From assembly GCA_013286165.1 (NCBI GenBank), contig JABDGF010000005.1, positions 1 to 64,000 of the forward strand: DNA of 64,000 nt, read 5' to 3'. Below are positions 3,903-40,495 of the stretch, one piece after another. How positions within the stretch are numbered: position 1 is the stretch's first letter; the number at the start of each line of letters is the position of its first letter. The position numbers and the translations under genes were made by a program. Origin of the DNA: Acidobacteriota bacterium. GTDB lineage: Bacteria; Acidobacteriota; Terriglobia; Acidiferrales; UBA7541. Under the pieces are notes generated by a model that did not search any database, had not been told where the DNA came from, and worked only from the letters and a program-made list of their open reading frames with translations.

Positions 3903-5987
3903 ATGGATGTCAAGAAGAGGATCTCGCGCAGGAATTTTGTGTCTTCGGCGATCGCGGCTGGCGCTGCGGCCGCCGTGCTCCCCGTGGGGACGCTGATCGC
4001 AGAAGTGGCGAATCCGTTCCGGTCGGGCTACCTGTTGCAGGACGCGCCCGGCCTCTTGCCGACGCCGTCTTGGAAAGACCAGGGCGTTGAGAATCTCACG
4101 CGGTCGCCGCACGCGAAGCTGAAGAACATTCCGGTGCGCGCGGTGACGATTCATGAAGGCTTCTGGTACAAGCGGCGCGAGATCAACATCAACAAGAGCA
4201 TTCCCAGCATGCACGACCTGCTCGAATCGAACGGCCGCATGGAGAATTTCCGCCGGCTGATCGGCAAGAGCACGGCGGCGCAGAGTGGGCCCGTTTATTC
4301 CGACTCCGACATTTATAAGTGGACCGAAGCGGTCGGGTTCACGCTGCAATCCGGTCCGTACCCGGAGCTTCGTGCGTCGGCGAACAAATTTATCGACGAC
4401 GTGGTGGCCACGCAGCTGCCGAACGGATACTTGAACACGTATTACGTGGGCGACAAAGCGTCGCAGATCATGCTGCCCGCGACGCAGACCACGGGGCACG
4501 AGCTTTACAACATGGGGCACTACCTGCAGGGCGCGATTGCGTACTACCGCGGCACGGGCGATCCGAAAATGCTCGAAGCCGGAATGAAGTTCGTGAACGA
4601 CTTCCTGCTGCCGAACTACGGACCGGCGCCGCTGAAGCCGATCGTTTCCGGGCACCCTGAAATCGAGATGGGATTGATCGAGCTGTACCGCATGACGGGC
4701 GACAAACGGCAACTCGACCTCGCTGGTTACATTCTGCGCGGGGATACACGCATCGAATTGCCGGCGCACCGCACAATTTATATGTTTAGCGGAACGCCGT
4801 TCACGGAACGCACGAAGCTGGAAGGACACGCGGTTCGCGCGATGTACGCGTGCTGCGGCGCCACCGACTACTACATGGAGACGGGCGACGAGACGTACCT
4901 GAAGACGCTCAACACTTTGTGGAACGATTTGACGGCGTCGAAGATGTACATCACCGGCGGAGTTGGCGCGCGGCAGGCGGGCGAAGCGTTTGGCGATGCG
5001 TACGAATTGCCCAACGCTCTTGCGTATGGCGAAAGCTGCGCGGCGATCGGCAACATGATGTGGAACTGGCGCATGCTCGCGGTCACCGGCGACGCGAAGT
5101 TCACCGACGTGATCGAGCGCGCGCTTTACAACGGCATCAATTCCGGCATGTCGCTCGATGGCACGCTGTATTGCTATCGCAATCCGCTGGCTTTCGATCC
5201 TGCCACGGGCGATACGATTCGCAACACTTGGTATGACACGACATGTTGTCCACCCAATCTCGAGCGCACGTTCGCTTCGCTGCCTGGATATTTCTACAGC
5301 ACGAGCGCGGACGGAATTTACGTGCACCTCTACGACAATTCGGATCTCGACTGGAAGCTCGAGAACGGGACGGGGCTTAAGATTTCGCAGAAGACGAATT
5401 ATCCGTGGGACGGAGGCGTGAACCTGACGGTGACGCCGGCGCAGACTTCGGAGTTCACCATCTATCTGCGCATCCCGGGCTGGAGCGAAAGCGCACAAAT
5501 AATGGTTAACGGAAAGAGTGTGAGCGGCGCGAAAGGCGGCGAATATCTGGCAGTGAAGCGTTCGTGGGCGGCGGGCGACACAATTCAGGTGAAGTTTGAA
5601 ATGACGCCGCAAGTGCTCGAAGCGAATCCGCATGTGGTGGAAGACGAGGGACGCGTCGCACTGCAGCGCGGGCCGCTCGTATATTGCCTGGAACAACTCG
5701 ACCAGCCAAACGGCACGACAATTGAAGACGTGTCGGTGAATATCGGGCACAAGGCTTCGGACGGATTCAAATCCGAGTTCAAGCCGGATTTGCTGGGCGG
5801 CGTGATGGTGTTGCAGCACGAGGGCGAGCTGATCCAATATCCGGACTCGCGCAACTCGCTCTACATGCAATACCAGCAGGATCGGCCGAAGAATAAGCCC
5901 GTCGAGCTGACTTTCATTCCTTACTACGCGTGGGCGAACCGGGACAAGTCGCCGATGCAGGTTTGGACGCAGCTGACGAAGGTTTGA
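3903..5987 (+). CDS. Exported glycoside hydrolase, GH127/DUF1680-like
   Basis: Tat-like N-terminus KKRISRRNFVSSAIAAGAAAAV; YGESCAAIGNMMWNWRM and TTCCPPNLERTFAS, consistent with the E-x-C / CC signature of GH127. Confidence 0.88.
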   Translation: MDVKKRISRRNFVSSAIAAGAAAAVLPVGTLIAEVANPFRSGYLLQDAPGLLPTPSWKDQGVENLTRSPHAKLKNIPVRAVTIHEGFWYKRREININKSIPSMHDLLESNGRMENFRRLIGKSTAAQSGPVYSDSDIYKWTEAVGFTLQSGPYPELRASANKFIDDVVATQLPNGYLNTYYVGDKASQIMLPATQTTGHELYNMGHYLQGAIAYYRGTGDPKMLEAGMKFVNDFLLPNYGPAPLKPIVSGHPEIEMGLIELYRMTGDKRQLDLAGYILRGDTRIELPAHRTIYMFSGTPFTERTKLEGHAVRAMYACCGATDYYMETGDETYLKTLNTLWNDLTASKMYITGGVGARQAGEAFGDAYELPNALAYGESCAAIGNMMWNWRMLAVTGDAKFTDVIERALYNGINSGMSLDGTLYCYRNPLAFDPATGDTIRNTWYDTTCCPPNLERTFASLPGYFYSTSADGIYVHLYDNSDLDWKLENGTGLKISQKTNYPWDGGVNLTVTPAQTSEFTIYLRIPGWSESAQIMVNGKSVSGAKGGEYLAVKRSWAAGDTIQVKFEMTPQVLEANPHVVEDEGRVALQRGPLVYCLEQLDQPNGTTIEDVSVNIGHKASDGFKSEFKPDLLGGVMVLQHEGELIQYPDSRNSLYMQYQQDRPKNKPVELTFIPYYAWANRDKSPMQVWTQLTKV

Positions 5988-34345: not shown

Positions 34346-34696
34346 ATGAACAACGTCTCCGTGAACTTCAATATGGTCACCACGGCCCTTGAACTGCCGG
34401 GATACAAGATCGTGAAATCGTTCGGCCTGGTGCGCGGCATCACCGTCCGCTCGCGCAGCATCTTCGGCACAATCGGCGCCTCGCTCGAGACGCTCGTCGG
34501 CGGCAACATCACGCTCTTCGAAGAAATGTGCGAGAAGACTCGCGAAGAAGCTCTCGAGCTGATGATGCAGCACGCCACCCAGCACGGAGCCAACGCGGTG
34601 ATCGCGATGCGCTATGACGCGAACGAGCTGATGCAGGGCGTCACCGAAGTTCTCGCCTACGGCACGGCCGTGCAGGTCGTCCCAGTTACCGCGTGA
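34346..34696 (+). CDS. YbjQ/UPF0145 family protein
   Basis: LPGYKIVKSFGLVRGITVRSRSIFGTIGASLETLVGGNI and ANAVIAMRYDANE are characteristic of this family. Confidence 0.88.
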   Translation: MNNVSVNFNMVTTALELPGYKIVKSFGLVRGITVRSRSIFGTIGASLETLVGGNITLFEEMCEKTREEALELMMQHATQHGANAVIAMRYDANELMQGVTEVLAYGTAVQVVPVTA

Positions 34697-34818: not shown

Positions 34819-35631
34819 ATGAAGGCTGCGCCGCACGCGCTCGTGCTCACACTCGCTCTCACACTCTGCTCGATCTCGCTCGCCGCGCAATCGGCGCCCG
34901 CCGCTTCCGCAGCAAAAGCCGAGGCCGCCAAGGTCGTAACGGTCTCGACCAAGTCGCAGGACGTGACCTACCCGAGCGGTAAAGACACTCTCACCGGATA
35001 TCTCGTCGAGCCCGAGAAACCGGGCACCTACGGCGCCGTGATTGTCGTTCACGAATGGTGGGGCATGAACGACTGGGTGAAGGAGCAGACGCAAAAGCTC
35101 GCGTCGCTCGGCTATGTGGCGCTCGCCGTCGATCTTTACAACGGCAAGTCCGCCACCGATCCCACCGAAGCACACGAACTTTCACGCGGCTTGGCGCAGG
35201 ACCGCGCGATTCGCGAAATTCAGGCAGGCTACGACTACCTCGACACGCTGAAGAGCGTGAATAAGGATCGCATCGCGATCGTCGGCTGGTGCATGGGCGG
35301 CGGCTATGCGGCAGATTTTGCGGTGAAGCAGCCGCGACTGGCGGGCCTGGTGATCAACTACGGCGCGCTGCCCAGCGATCCCAATGATCTGCAGCAAATC
35401 GCCCCGCCCGTGCTCGGCAATTTCGGCGCTGACGACAAGGGCATCACGCCTGCCGACGTAAAACAATTCCAGGATTACCTGAAGAAGCTGGGGCATTACG
35501 TGGATATCAAGATTTACCCGGGCGCGGGCCACGCGTTTGAAAATCCCAACAACACGAACGGTTACCGCCCCGAAGCTGCGGCGGATGCGTGGGCGCGCAC
35601 CGTCACGTTCTTGCACCGTTGCCTCGGCTAA
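34819..35631 (+). CDS. Exported dienelactone hydrolase family protein
   Basis: Signal peptide; AVIVVHEWWGMNDWVKEQTQKLASLGYVALAVDLYNG, IAIVGWCMGGGYA, YPGAGHAFEN. Start moved to ATG 34819. Confidence 0.92.
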   Translation: MKAAPHALVLTLALTLCSISLAAQSAPAASAAKAEAAKVVTVSTKSQDVTYPSGKDTLTGYLVEPEKPGTYGAVIVVHEWWGMNDWVKEQTQKLASLGYVALAVDLYNGKSATDPTEAHELSRGLAQDRAIREIQAGYDYLDTLKSVNKDRIAIVGWCMGGGYAADFAVKQPRLAGLVINYGALPSDPNDLQQIAPPVLGNFGADDKGITPADVKQFQDYLKKLGHYVDIKIYPGAGHAFENPNNTNGYRPEAAADAWARTVTFLHRCLG

Positions 35632-35665
35632 TCGGCGAGCGCAACGGCGCGGCTGGTGCGGCGGC

Positions 35666-36142
35666 CTAGGGCCTCGCGGGCAACCTCTTCGCGAGCAGCA
35701 AATCGATCGCGTACTTGCCCGGCCCGAAAAAAAGCACGATCAGTCCCACAAACAAAAATAGAAACGGCGCGGCCGCGACGAATTTGTCCGGATCCGAAAC
35801 GAACGACTTGAACGCCTCGTGATCCGCGGTGAGAAACGCCACCAGCATATCGATCACGATCCCGAGCGCCGTGATGCGCGACAGCAGACCCAGCGCCAAC
35901 AGAATTCCGCCGACCAGCTCGAACCCTGAAACGAAAACCGCGGTGAAATGCGGCGCAGGTATCCCCAGATTTGTGAAGAACCCCACTACGCGCGAAGTAT
36001 CCTGCAATTTTCCCCATCCCGCCTCTGCGAACTGCCAGCCAAAATAAACACGGATGAGCAGCAGGAATGCGGACTGCAAAGCGTTCATCACCCGCACAAA
36101 CGTCGCGTGCCAGCTGAAAATGGGATTCGTTGCGATGCTCAT
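35666..36142 (-). CDS. DoxX-family membrane protein (last gene of buf/gig-like cluster)
   Basis: LLLIRVYFGWQFAEAGWGKLQDTSRVVGFFTNLGIPAPHFTAVFVSGFELVGGILLALGLLSR is typical DoxX. Confidence 0.9.
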   Translation of the reverse strand: MSIATNPIFSWHATFVRVMNALQSAFLLLIRVYFGWQFAEAGWGKLQDTSRVVGFFTNLGIPAPHFTAVFVSGFELVGGILLALGLLSRITALGIVIDMLVAFLTADHEAFKSFVSDPDKFVAAAPFLFLFVGLIVLFFGPGKYAIDLLLAKRLPARP

Positions 36143-36195
36143 GGAAAAAACTTCTCCTCGCGCCGCTGTGAAAACTCGCGTTACCGCGGGCGCTT

Positions 36196-37092
36196 CTACT
36201 TCTTTGAATTTTTATCGATGTGGCAAAACCAGCCGAGCGAAGACCACGTTTGAAACCATTGCTGCACGTGCGCCCGCTGGTCAGCGGGGGAAATTTTCGT
36301 GCCCGTCCACGCCGTGTCGAGCGCTTTCGCGAGAGTCTTGCCGGCCGCGATCGCCGCAAGAATCGCATACTCCTCGCGCTCCAGCCGCCGGAAATATACC
36401 TCTTCATCGACGCGGTGAACGCAGAGAAAAATCTCGGCCGGCTTCAGCGCCGCCACCTGCCGCACGCGCTTCTTTTTCTGCCGCTCGCTGAACGCGTTAC
36501 TGGCCACGTTCAGTTCGTCCATATCTTTGCGCACCTCGATCAGCAGGTCATCTACGGGATAGCGCAAATCGAGCAGGTGAATGTACGGCTGCACCTTCAA
36601 TCGCAGTTTCGATGGATCAGCCTTCGCAAGGTCCGCTTGCTTCAAGCCCGGCTCGGCCAGCCCATCGAATGCGTCGATATCAGCCCATTCGAGCCGCGCC
36701 ATATCCACGGCCAGCGCCGCCCGATCGCCCAGCATCGCCGTGTGTTTGCGGAGCCAGCCTTCGAGTCGCGCGCCCAAATTTCGCAGCGTAAACGATTCGG
36801 AAGGGCAGTCGATCAGGTACGCCTTCGACACCGCATCGAACTTCCGTTCGCCGAGCACAGCGCGCAGCCCTGGAAAATCCTCCGCGAACCCGCTCAACAC
36901 GCGAAACCAATACTGCCTGTTGTAAATCTCAAGCCGCTCGAAGGAAGTGAGCCGGTCGTTCGGCTTGATGAATTTCGCGGCCTCGGCGCGCATCGAGCCT
37001 CCGCCCGGCGCATTCGGCCGCATCCGCTCGTCGCGCGTCAACGGAGTCATCACCGCACGCGCCATGCGCCGCTGAATCGCAGCGAGCTTCAT
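36196..37092 (-). CDS. DUF2063 family protein (BufC/HvfC/GigC-like partner protein)
   Basis: N-terminal LAAIQRRMARAVMTPL, then LEIYNRQYWFRVLSGFAEDFPGLRAVLGERKFDAVSKAYL; start overlaps the upstream MNIO stop by 4 nt. Confidence 0.88.
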   Translation of the reverse strand: MKLAAIQRRMARAVMTPLTRDERMRPNAPGGGSMRAEAAKFIKPNDRLTSFERLEIYNRQYWFRVLSGFAEDFPGLRAVLGERKFDAVSKAYLIDCPSESFTLRNLGARLEGWLRKHTAMLGDRAALAVDMARLEWADIDAFDGLAEPGLKQADLAKADPSKLRLKVQPYIHLLDLRYPVDDLLIEVRKDMDELNVASNAFSERQKKKRVRQVAALKPAEIFLCVHRVDEEVYFRRLEREEYAILAAIAAGKTLAKALDTAWTGTKISPADQRAHVQQWFQTWSSLGWFCHIDKNSKK

Positions 37093-37940
37093 CCAGCCTT
37101 CTTCAGCACGGCGCTTGCGAGAAATTTGTTCGCCTTCAGCGCTTCGTCATGCACTTCGTCAAACGACGGAATGCTGTCGTCCCACTCCAGCAGCGTCGCC
37201 GTATGGCCCACACGCTCGATCGCTCGCGCATAAATCTTCCACACCGGATCGATCACCGGATGGTCGTGCGTATCCAGAATGTATTTGCGGTATTTCGAAT
37301 GTCCGGCAATGTGAATCTGCGCCACGCGCTCGGCCGGCACGCTGTTCACGTAATCAAACGGATTGAACGAGTGATTCTGCGACGAAACGTAAATGTTATT
37401 CACGTCGAGCAGGATGCCGCAGTCCGCGCGCTCCACCACTTCGTTCAGGAATTCCCACTCCGTCATCTCTGAGACATGAAATTCCGCGTAACTGCTCACA
37501 TTCTCGACCACCACCGGCACTTCCACAAAATCCTGCACTTCACGAATCTTTTGCGCCGTCACGCGAGCCGCCTCAAACGTGTACGGCATCGGCAGCAGAT
37601 CGTGCGTGTACCGCCCATCGACGCTGCCCCAGCAGAGATGATCCGAAAGCCACGGCGTCTTCGTCCGCTTCACCAGCGCCTTCAGGCGCCGCAGGTGCTC
37701 GCGATTCAATTTCTCCGCCGAACCGAAATACATCGACACGCCGTGCTGCACCACTTTGTATTGATCGAGAATTTGATCCAGGATTCGCAGCGGCCGCCCG
37801 CCGTCGATCATGTAGTTCTCGGAAATAATTTCGAACCAATCCACCACGGGCTTGCGCGTCAGGATGTGGTGGTAGTGCGGCGCGCGCAGACCAATCCCGA
37901 TCCCGTAGTTTGTGAAATTGTTGAACCGGTTCGCCGGCAT
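37089..37940 (-). CDS. DUF692 / multinuclear non-haem iron oxidase (MNIO; BufB/HvfB/GigB-like)
   Basis: GIGLRAPHYHHILTRKPVVDWFEIISENYM, SDHLCWGSVDG, VENVSSYAEF, ILLDVNNIYVSSQNH, QIHIAGHS, all characteristic of DUF692. Confidence 0.95.
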   Translation of the reverse strand: MPANRFNNFTNYGIGIGLRAPHYHHILTRKPVVDWFEIISENYMIDGGRPLRILDQILDQYKVVQHGVSMYFGSAEKLNREHLRRLKALVKRTKTPWLSDHLCWGSVDGRYTHDLLPMPYTFEAARVTAQKIREVQDFVEVPVVVENVSSYAEFHVSEMTEWEFLNEVVERADCGILLDVNNIYVSSQNHSFNPFDYVNSVPAERVAQIHIAGHSKYRKYILDTHDHPVIDPVWKIYARAIERVGHTATLLEWDDSIPSFDEVHDEALKANKFLASAVLKKAG

Positions 37941-37950
37941 TCACAGCTCC

Positions 37951-38011
37951 AAAAAAAGAATCGGTGTCAGAGACTCGGCAACACGCACCACGCCAGGCCC
38001 CTGACACCGAT
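37951..38011 (-). terminator. Terminator-like hairpin between RiPP precursor and MNIO genes
   Basis: Perfect 11-bp inverted repeat ATCGGTGTCAG (minus strand, 38011-38001) / CTGACACCGAT (37970-37960), followed on the minus strand by TCTTTTTTT and then the GGAG SD of the MNIO gene. Confidence 0.75.
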
Positions 38012-38019
38012 GATAGACG

Positions 38020-38331
38020 TTACGCCTTGGGCGCGTCGCTGCTCGGCATCTTCGAACCATCCGTCGCGCAACCACCCTTGCCCTTGCACGAGTTCTGGCC
38101 CTTGCAGCCGTTGTCGCTCGACTTACATCCGCCCTTGCCCTTGCAGGAGTTCTGACCCTTGCAAGCGTGCTTTTCCTTCACCTTCGTGTCTTTCGTGGAC
38201 TGATCCTGCGTGTGAGTTGCCGCGGCGCGCGCGCCGGCCACAACGTTCGACGCCTGAACTGCCGAGCCCGTCCCCGCCAGCAATCCGGCGAGAGCTGCGC
38301 CCGCGATCATTGCCTTCTTCGACTTTGTCAT
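38020..38331 (-). CDS. Small secreted Cys-rich RiPP precursor, bufferin (BufA-like) type
   Basis: 103 aa; signal peptide MTKSKKAMIAGAALAGLLAGTGSAVQA; six Cys in two identical CKGQNSCKGKGGC blocks; GGAGG SD at 38341-38345; adjacent DUF692/DUF2063/DoxX genes. Confidence 0.88.
   Translation of the reverse strand: MTKSKKAMIAGAALAGLLAGTGSAVQASNVVAGARAAATHTQDQSTKDTKVKEKHACKGQNSCKGKGGCKSSDNGCKGQNSCKGKGGCATDGSKMPSSDAPKA
38068..38106 (-). repeat. Core repeat 2 (CKGQNSCKGKGGC)
   Basis: 39 nt encoding the same 13 aa as 38125-38163. Confidence 0.95.
38125..38163 (-). repeat. Core repeat 1 (CKGQNSCKGKGGC)
   Basis: 39 nt encoding the same 13 aa as 38068-38106, with some synonymous differences. Confidence 0.95.
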
Positions 38332-38848
38332 GTGCTGTTTCCTCCAGTTGAGTGTGATTCCTTACTTCTTTCGAGCAAGGCCCGTTGAATCGGCTGGGAG
38401 TTTCCGCGTTCGTTCGATCGAGCGTCTGGCGCCCCTGCCTGAAACTGTGCTGCAACCGCCCCGCAACCCGTGCCGCAATTTCGCGATTCCAACAGGTAAC
38501 GCGCGCTACGTCCTTCCGGACGTCCCACTCGTGCCCCTTAGACTGCGTGAGTTCGGTTTGGTTACAGGCTATCTTTTGCAGCGCTCCATCGATGCTGACC
38601 GCGGCCAATGCGGCCCCGCGGCGTCCACCGCCGCTGAGCCTGCCATCGGAACTGGGCGAGGCTGACCTCACCTTGTACTCCTTTCCGAGGGCTTGGTCCA
38701 GATACTTCCCTTACGCTTTATCACGCGCCATTGGATTTATGTGCGCAAATCGTTCCGTGGTGACAAAAATGTGACAACTCGACAGGTATCGGCGACGAGC
38801 GCAGCTTTCCCGGCCGTTGCAGCGCCTGCCTTTGCGGTTGTGGCCTGA

Positions 38849-40495
38849 CTACTGAACGGGCAGCGCGTGGCCGTCAGTGTGCGCTATTGAGACACCTGCC
38901 AACTTCGCGAGCGTTGGCGCGATATCCGCCGGTGACGCGCCCGTAGGATCGGACTTTGCGCGAACGCCCGCGCCCATCACCAGCAGCGGCACGTGCTGGT
39001 CGTAATCGTACGGCGATCCGTGCGTTGTGCCAGAGGGCTTGCTCGACGATTTCGCGTAGAAAAACCAATACGGCTTCGGGATCACGATCACGTCGCCGCT
39101 CCGGCTTGCGTAGTAGCTATAGTTTGCAGCTTGCGCGAGCGGCTTGGTGGACGAAAGTTTGGCGAGCGAGTCTCCCGCGAACGCGTCCGCGATTCCCGGC
39201 ACCGTCTTGATCGCCGCTAGCACCGCCTGCACCGCCGCTGGATTCGACTTCAGCTTCTCCGCCACGTCCGCCTTGAAGTAGAGGTTCTGATCCTGGAAGC
39301 TCGCGACTGGATCGGCACCCAAATTGTACGGCGCGAGCGCCTGTTCCACCTGCGCCTTCACCGCCAGAATGTCCGCGCGCCCCGCGTCCATGCTTTTCTG
39401 CGCGCGCAATTCCGGAATGGGTGCGACTCCGTGATCCGCCGACAGCGCCACAACCCAATTTCCACGCCCTACCGTTTTGTCGAGATGGTCGAATAGTTTT
39501 CCGATTGTGCCGTCCAGCTGCAGCAGCGTGTCCTGAATTTCCGCGCTGTCGGGACCATATTGATGTCCCACCAGATCCAGCGCCGAGAAGCTGATCCCCA
39601 GCACATCCACCGAGCCGCGCTGACCGAGCTTCATGCTATCCACAAGCGATTCGCCCATCGCTTCAAGGTAAGTGTCGGAATACGGGCTACCTTGCCACGC
39701 ATCATAAAACCCCCGATCCGCCAACCCGCTCGCGCTGAGCGCATGAGGAAACTCCGAGCTGAGCGGCGCGCCCGACGAATCCATCGCACCGCCACCAGCA
39801 GGCGCCGCCCACGTCTTCGACACGTCCGCTTCGATCGGGTGCGCCGTCACAAATGCCTGCACCTCCGGCACGCGCGCCGATTCGTACGCCGTCGAAGTGA
39901 CCCAGCGCGATCCCTCGAGCCAAGTCACCGCGTCCGCGTTGTGCCCCGCAAGCGTCGCAGCGGAGCGCGCCTTCAACGACATCGTCACCGTGCGCGAACC
40001 TTTCGACTCTTTGCGAATCTGTTCCGCCAGCGACGGCGCGTGCATCCGCCACGCGCTCTCGCCCTTGCCATCCGCAGCCGGCGCGCCATCGCCCGCGCCG
40101 TAGCTGATGAGCGTCACCTTCGGATCGCTTACGCACGTCACACGCGTGTTCTTATCGCGCTGATACCAATCATTCGCGATCATGCCGTGCGTGGAAGGGA
40201 AGTCGCCCGTCGAAATCGTCGAGTGCCCCGCGCATGTCACCGTATTCGCGTACGGGTAATAAGCGTTCGTGAATTGCGCACCCTCCGTCACCAGCCTGTG
40301 CAATCCGCCGTGCCACGACGCGCTGAAGCGGTCCACATAATCCGCGCGCATCTGATCGACCACCAAAATCACCACCAGCTTCGGCCGCTGCGGTTTCGCT
40401 GAAACGCTCGCGATCCCGAGCGCCAAAACCGCCACTGCGAACAACGCTCCAACGCGCAAAATTCTCCCAGAGCCTTTTATCATAGCGATCCCCAC
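38849..40495 (-). CDS. Alkaline phosphatase superfamily protein, PafA-like
   Basis: LVVILVVDQMRADYVDRF, NAYYPYANTVTCAGHSTISTGDFPSTHGMIANDWY (nucleophile Thr region), VALSADHGVAPIPE. Confidence 0.9.
   Translation of the reverse strand: MGIAMIKGSGRILRVGALFAVAVLALGIASVSAKPQRPKLVVILVVDQMRADYVDRFSASWHGGLHRLVTEGAQFTNAYYPYANTVTCAGHSTISTGDFPSTHGMIANDWYQRDKNTRVTCVSDPKVTLISYGAGDGAPAADGKGESAWRMHAPSLAEQIRKESKGSRTVTMSLKARSAATLAGHNADAVTWLEGSRWVTSTAYESARVPEVQAFVTAHPIEADVSKTWAAPAGGGAMDSSGAPLSSEFPHALSASGLADRGFYDAWQGSPYSDTYLEAMGESLVDSMKLGQRGSVDVLGISFSALDLVGHQYGPDSAEIQDTLLQLDGTIGKLFDHLDKTVGRGNWVVALSADHGVAPIPELRAQKSMDAGRADILAVKAQVEQALAPYNLGADPVASFQDQNLYFKADVAEKLKSNPAAVQAVLAAIKTVPGIADAFAGDSLAKLSSTKPLAQAANYSYYASRSGDVIVIPKPYWFFYAKSSSKPSGTTHGSPYDYDQHVPLLVMGAGVRAKSDPTGASPADIAPTLAKLAGVSIAHTDGHALPVQ

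Follow-up and report, generated by a model that had tools for sequence, protein, structure and literature searches.

A probable Buf2-like peptide precursor with a two-half six-cysteine core in a soil Acidobacteriota bacterium

The precursor gene and its operon

Four reverse-strand genes in the order bufA-bufB-bufC-doxX form an operon in the window, the whole 64,000-nucleotide stretch of Acidobacteriota DNA that was analysed, with bufA as the first gene. The bufA-like gene (38020..38331, (-)), as given in the ORF list, encodes a 103-aa precursor that likely consists of a Sec signal peptide, a linker and a six-Cys core. It is followed by bufB (37089..37940, (-)), which encodes a 283-aa MNIO (formerly DUF692) maturase that scores 350.1 bits against NF050167 (cut-off 310) and 357 bits against PF05114 (MbnB_TglH_ChrH), and by bufC (36196..37092, (-)), the start of which overlaps the bufB stop with four bases shared and which encodes a 298-aa DUF2063 partner (PF09836, 47.6 bits, cut-off 27.2). 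The last gene of the cluster, doxX (35666..36142, (-)), encodes a 158-aa protein (PF07681, 74.9 bits, cut-off 23.6). A precursor, an MNIO and a DUF2063 protein, often with a DoxX, constitute the published core of a bufferin cluster (PMC12452194), and the first-pass annotation of the short gene as a precursor within a modification cluster (MNIO + DUF2063 + DoxX) is borne out. Neither a copper regulator nor a sigma factor was identified among the cluster genes, a sigma-70 promoter scan upstream of bufA returned nothing above chance, and no known RNA family was found within 35600-38900 (E <= 0.1). A gene for a PafA-like alkaline phosphatase / phosphodiesterase (38849-40495, (-)) shares the strand of bufA and lies ~520 bases upstream of it, and a YbjQ-family protein, described in Pfam as putative heavy-metal-binding, is encoded near the cluster on the opposite strand (34346-34696, (+)).

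By eye, the precursor begins with a Lys-rich start, a hydrophobic stretch and an AxA-like site, and the probable signal peptide is MTKSKKAMIAGAALAGLLAGTGSAVQA (38250..38331, (-)), with the cleavage site also placed by eye from the sequence. Residues A12, A13 and G16 of the signal region are invariant in 59 relatives. Residues 55-88, HACKGQNSCKGKGGCKSSDNGCKGQNSCKGKGGC, are encoded within 38056-38175 and contain the same 13 residues, CKGQNSCKGKGGC, twice, as half 1 (residues 57-69; 38125..38163, (-)) and as half 2 (residues 76-88; 38068..38106, (-)). The halves are separated by KSSDNG, resulting in a Cys spacing of 5-5-6-5-5. These 13 aa are the longest exact internal repeat in the precursor, and are far beyond the maxima of 7 aa and 8 aa obtained from 20,000 shuffles each of the whole protein and of the Cys-rich core alone, so that the repeat is not an effect of composition. 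The two identical 13-aa blocks with six Cys originally described are thus confirmed, as are the synonymous differences between their DNA copies, which affect 5 of 39 bases (GGT/GGC, TCC/TCG, GGC/GGT, GGA/GGT and TGT/TGC) and leave every residue unchanged. AlphaFold2, supplied with 59 sequences, did not fold the precursor with confidence (mean pLDDT 50, pTM 0.18), and comparison of the precursor with phage families and solved structures yielded nothing meaningful.

Layout and history of the two halves

A scan of genome contigs from one genome collection confirmed 519 relatives of the precursor, the best of which are mostly from Acidobacteriota, with some from Verrucomicrobiota. Counted by genome, and in samples biased toward the window's own kin, relatives were found by searches of the phylum (31 of 297 genomes), the class (112 of 399) and the family (17 of 89). 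Cultured genera among the relatives from the contig scan include Edaphobacter, Silvibacterium, Occallatibacter and Paracidobacterium. A same-strand bufB lies directly downstream of bufA in nearly all loci with room for one, bufC follows bufB, and doxX is usually next where the flanks suffice. One locus has two tandem Buf2-like precursor genes (L081:3764-4060 and 5145-5435) ahead of a single bufB, and a contig labelled as Betaproteobacteria (L105, CAJCHZ010000107.1) encodes a precursor 69% identical to that of the window, reflecting either transfer or mis-binning.

The layout was evaluated in 113 distinct precursor proteins extracted from fetched loci. The Cys spacing is exactly 5-5-6-5-5 in 95, six have 12 Cys (5-5-6-5-5, 8, 5-5-6-5-5) and the others either show the 5-5-8-5-13 spacing or are irregular. 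A looser search for 13-residue halves gave 99 ORFs with two and 5 with four. Three halves were counted in two proteins, both of them four-half proteins with one degenerate half, and one irregular protein has six. Single-half counts come from canonical Buf2 sequences that lack the final GGC in the second half, from a deletion form (L026) or from an unrelated ORF (L031). Repeat number in the relatives, at 6 or 12 Cys, therefore shifts mostly in whole six-Cys units, each a pair of halves; for published Buf2 precursors, 6 Cys are documented in 90% and 12, through domain duplication, in the rest (PMC12452194). The variation in steps of 13 aa plus linker that the first-pass annotation had anticipated was not seen, and no lone half was found. 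The outcome named there as a refutation, a lack of conservation of the motif among homologues, did not appear, as the unit CKGxNxCKGxGGC is strongly conserved in the relatives. The two-half six-Cys unit is the normal form in soil Acidobacteriota and not a special duplication. The deletion form L026 lacks the linker together with the Cys that opens half 2, which leaves it with five Cys; bufB and bufC are retained downstream. Two irregular precursors, L029 and L024, have 16-18 and 10 Cys, respectively, with extra short CKS or CKGPEGC motifs outside the six-Cys units.

Comparison of the two halves within each of the 105 relatives with a two-half layout revealed identity at 13 of 13 positions in 8, at 12 in 41, at 11 in 33, at 10 in 20 and at 7-9 in 3. 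The half 2 sequence is nearly invariant, CKGKNSCKGKGGC, with Lys at position 4 in 101, Ser at position 6 in 97 and Lys at position 10 in all 105, whereas half 1 has Lys/Gln, Ser/Asp and Lys/Gln, respectively, at these three variable sites. Half 2 is thus the more constrained of the two, and they are not interchangeable. Where half 2 of the window has its first Gln, nearly all relatives have Lys and, among 20 family members, the codon at this site is a Lys codon (AAG or AAA) in all but the window, where it is CAG, and L045. The exact identity of the window halves lies roughly one substitution from the common state.

A recent tandem duplication or gene conversion, followed by selection for two equal modules, would explain why 13 of 13 residues are identical with 5 synonymous differences, and there are a few other loci in which the halves differ by only 1-3 bases. 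This explanation is nonetheless very improbable. Almost every relative has the two-half layout, which is therefore old, and identical halves are found in only 8 of 105. When each half of the window is compared with its orthologue in the five nearest loci, there are 0-4 base differences in half 1 and 3-6 in half 2. The window's own two halves differ by 5 bases, so that orthologous halves agree to a similar or greater degree. The sister half 2 also has a Lys codon at the site of the window CAG. The orthologue comparison thus disfavours recent duplication or gene conversion as the source of the identity. The synonymous differences had been taken to indicate that the blocks are under selection for identity, an idea that does not survive a comparison in which 97 of 105 relatives have non-identical halves and the window identity itself rests on a Lys-to-Gln difference from the sister species. 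Selection preserves each half and not the sameness between halves, and the exactness of the window repeat is not itself functional.

The residues that follow the Cys also distinguish the halves. In the window precursor, Lys follows C57, C63, C69, C76 and C82, five of the six Cys, and Ala follows C88. Among the 105 relatives, Lys follows C1 in 102, C2 in all, C3 in 103, C4 in 93 and C5 in all, and C6 is followed by Ala in 97 and by Lys in one. If a Cys-Lys context guides BufB, there would be five candidate modification sites, with C88 the odd one out. C63 and C82, the invariant CK sites of the two halves, are predicted to be modified, and C88 would be the most likely to escape. The proposal that the blocks represent two equivalent metal-binding or modification modules is therefore retained in part: a role for the Cys as modification and metal-binding residues is expected by homology to bufferins, but a strict equivalence of the blocks is contradicted by the near-fixed half 2, the variable half 1 and the Ala after the last Cys.

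Family assignment and the type of the maturase

The precursor matches NCBIfam BufA2 (NF050166) with an E value of 1.5e-10 and 41.1 bits, below the whole-protein cut-off of 60, and all 59 members of the precursor alignment match this single family (E <= 0.001). Close relatives with the 5-5-6-5-5 layout and printed scores, at 34-47 bits, are also below the cut-off, and so the window precursor is named Buf2-like and not a strict member of NF050166. Canonical Acidobacteriota BufA2 proteins, which score 62-70 bits and so are above the cut-off, have a spacing of 5-5-8-5-13 with GKGW in the second half, whereas the window precursor has a full repeated second half ending in GGC. The locus nevertheless has the bufABC adjacency with doxX, the above-cut-off BufB and the six conserved Cys of a Buf2 cluster. 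Fusion of the DUF2063 domain to one of RRE type is a further trait of Buf2 clusters; when the RRE-type part of BufC was inspected, the match to NGO1945_C (17.4 bits) was below the cut-off of 27. BufC is also below the cut-off for the HvfC family (42.6 bits, cut-off 142) and had no match among solved structures, and DoxX is below that for HvfX (63.7 bits, cut-off 80).

Three precursor classes, DUF2282, Lys-Cys repeat and Cys-Lys, have been described, and the residue beside the catalytic Asp of the MNIO is Asp in Cys-Lys enzymes and Phe in Lys-Cys enzymes (PMC12668002). BufB has the motif EWDD at positions 252-255 (E252-W253-D254-D255), whereas its nearest solved relative, 3BWW, has ERDF at the aligned stretch, with Phe at the final position. 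Of 129 related BufB proteins, 121 have an EWDD-type motif. BufB therefore has Asp, not Phe, next to the catalytic Asp, as in Cys-Lys captophorins, and this residue fits a substrate rich in Cys-Lys-Gly.

Six closely spaced Cys, many Lys and the proximity of a heavy-metal-binding-like YbjQ protein could together describe a metallothionein-like peptide that binds metal through free thiols, unmodified, with the adjacent MNIO acting elsewhere or not at all. The bufA-bufB-bufC order is, however, tight and conserved across phyla with short gaps, the precursor matches the BufA2 profile and the BufB active site is of the Cys-Lys type, all of which make such a peptide very improbable. A Lys-Cys (EGKCG) oxazolin/HvfA-type RiPP would share the enzyme superfamily and partner with the locus, and BufB also hits the HvfB family, below its cut-off. 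Such a RiPP is scarcely credible, as the precursor has Cys-Lys-Gly and not Gly-Lys-Cys-Gly, contains neither EGKCG, the repeat of HvfA/oxazolin, nor GKCG, and is accompanied by a BufB that scores 350 bits for the BufB family versus 253 for HvfB, with Asp where Lys-Cys enzymes have Phe. With a probability that we place at roughly 90%, the gene encodes the precursor of a bufferin-type, Buf2-like (Cys-Lys) copper-binding RiPP.

Among characterised systems, Buf2 (BufA2, Buf_6/12Cys; PMC12452194) shares with the window the bufABC-doxX order, a precursor that in the window has a probable signal peptide, six conserved Cys (12 if the domain is duplicated), GxNxCKGxG motifs and the same MNIO class; its published characterisation is described as preliminary. 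Cys-Lys captophorins (PMC12668002) have multiple Cys-Lys motifs, a DUF2063 (PME1) partner and the Asp after the catalytic Asp, as in the window, but the chemistry solved in that study is that of fontiphorin, oxazolin and gonophorin, not of the Cys-Lys six-Cys type, and its BufA2 is a structural model only. Six-Cys DUF692 precursors from Antarctic soil (PMC8692599) are similarly encoded by ~240-bp ORFs that specify six conserved Cys and lie ahead of DUF692 and DUF2063 genes. They differ in being from Gammaproteobacteria and in their low conservation outside the Cys, with no internal two-half repeat reported. The Caulobacter Buf1 (DUF2282) bufferin, a Sec-exported, copper-binding peptide matured by an MNIO and a DUF2063 protein, is likened to the window precursor but belongs to a different precursor family with four conserved Cys, of which the central Cys are modified and the outer Cys form a disulphide.

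The intergenic hairpin and a proposed mechanism

The gap between bufA and bufB contains a terminator-like or attenuator-like hairpin, ATCGGTGTCAG...CTGACACCGAT, then TTCTTTTTTT (37945..38010, (-)). On the coding strand, the window gap has a long stem and a T-rich tail, with a folding energy of -33.8 kcal/mol and a z-score of -3.0. In 64 distinct bufA-bufB gaps, window included, the mean z-score is -3.07, with 45 gaps scoring under -2 and 61 containing a stem of 9 or more pairs. Among control stretches of equal length, the mean z-score is 0.03 for those from coding sequence and -1.55 for those upstream of bufA, the latter thus being somewhat structured. The position of the hairpin is kept in most relatives, with stem sequences that differ by lineage. 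A simple terminator scan did not list it, probably owing to the loop and stem limits of the rule. Many relatives have a weak T-run after the hairpin, in contrast to the strong one of the window, and termination, 3′-end protection and processing are therefore all possible. The simplest purpose for such an element is an excess of precursor over enzyme.

Gene order, protein families, motif conservation, the substrate-type residue of BufB and the history of the halves are direct observations. From the behaviour of characterised relatives, in the cytoplasm BufC would present the precursor to BufB, which would oxidise Cys-Lys cysteines to 5-thiooxazoles, at -4 Da each, and the Sec system would then export the peptide, which would chelate excess copper in the periplasm. 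The traits expected of bufferins and captophorins are conversion of Cys to 5-thiooxazole, with a -4 Da shift and an absorbance near 305 nm, and binding of copper with protection in the periplasm. The hairpin after bufA probably permits the precursor to be made in excess over the enzymes, the least certain step of this scheme. We suggest, tentatively and at somewhat less than even odds, that there is a symmetric Buf2 subtype, with a copy-like second half, that is widespread in Acidobacteriota and Verrucomicrobiota and in which a position-conserved but sequence-variable hairpin sets a high precursor to enzyme ratio. The peptide is an ordinary representative of a class that is widespread and has been described only recently, with a tidy subtype and one operon feature, the hairpin; the main texts of PMC12452194 and PMC12668002 mention no hairpin or terminator.

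The assignment would place a peptide of an uncultured soil Acidobacteriota bacterium in the bufferin class, with a two-half, Cys-Lys, six-Cys form that is widespread in the lineage. The relatives, with 6 versus 12 Cys and with half 1 variable and half 2 fixed, offer a natural panel in which Cys modification and copper load may be related to repeat number, and the hairpin represents a candidate expression element between the precursor and enzyme genes.
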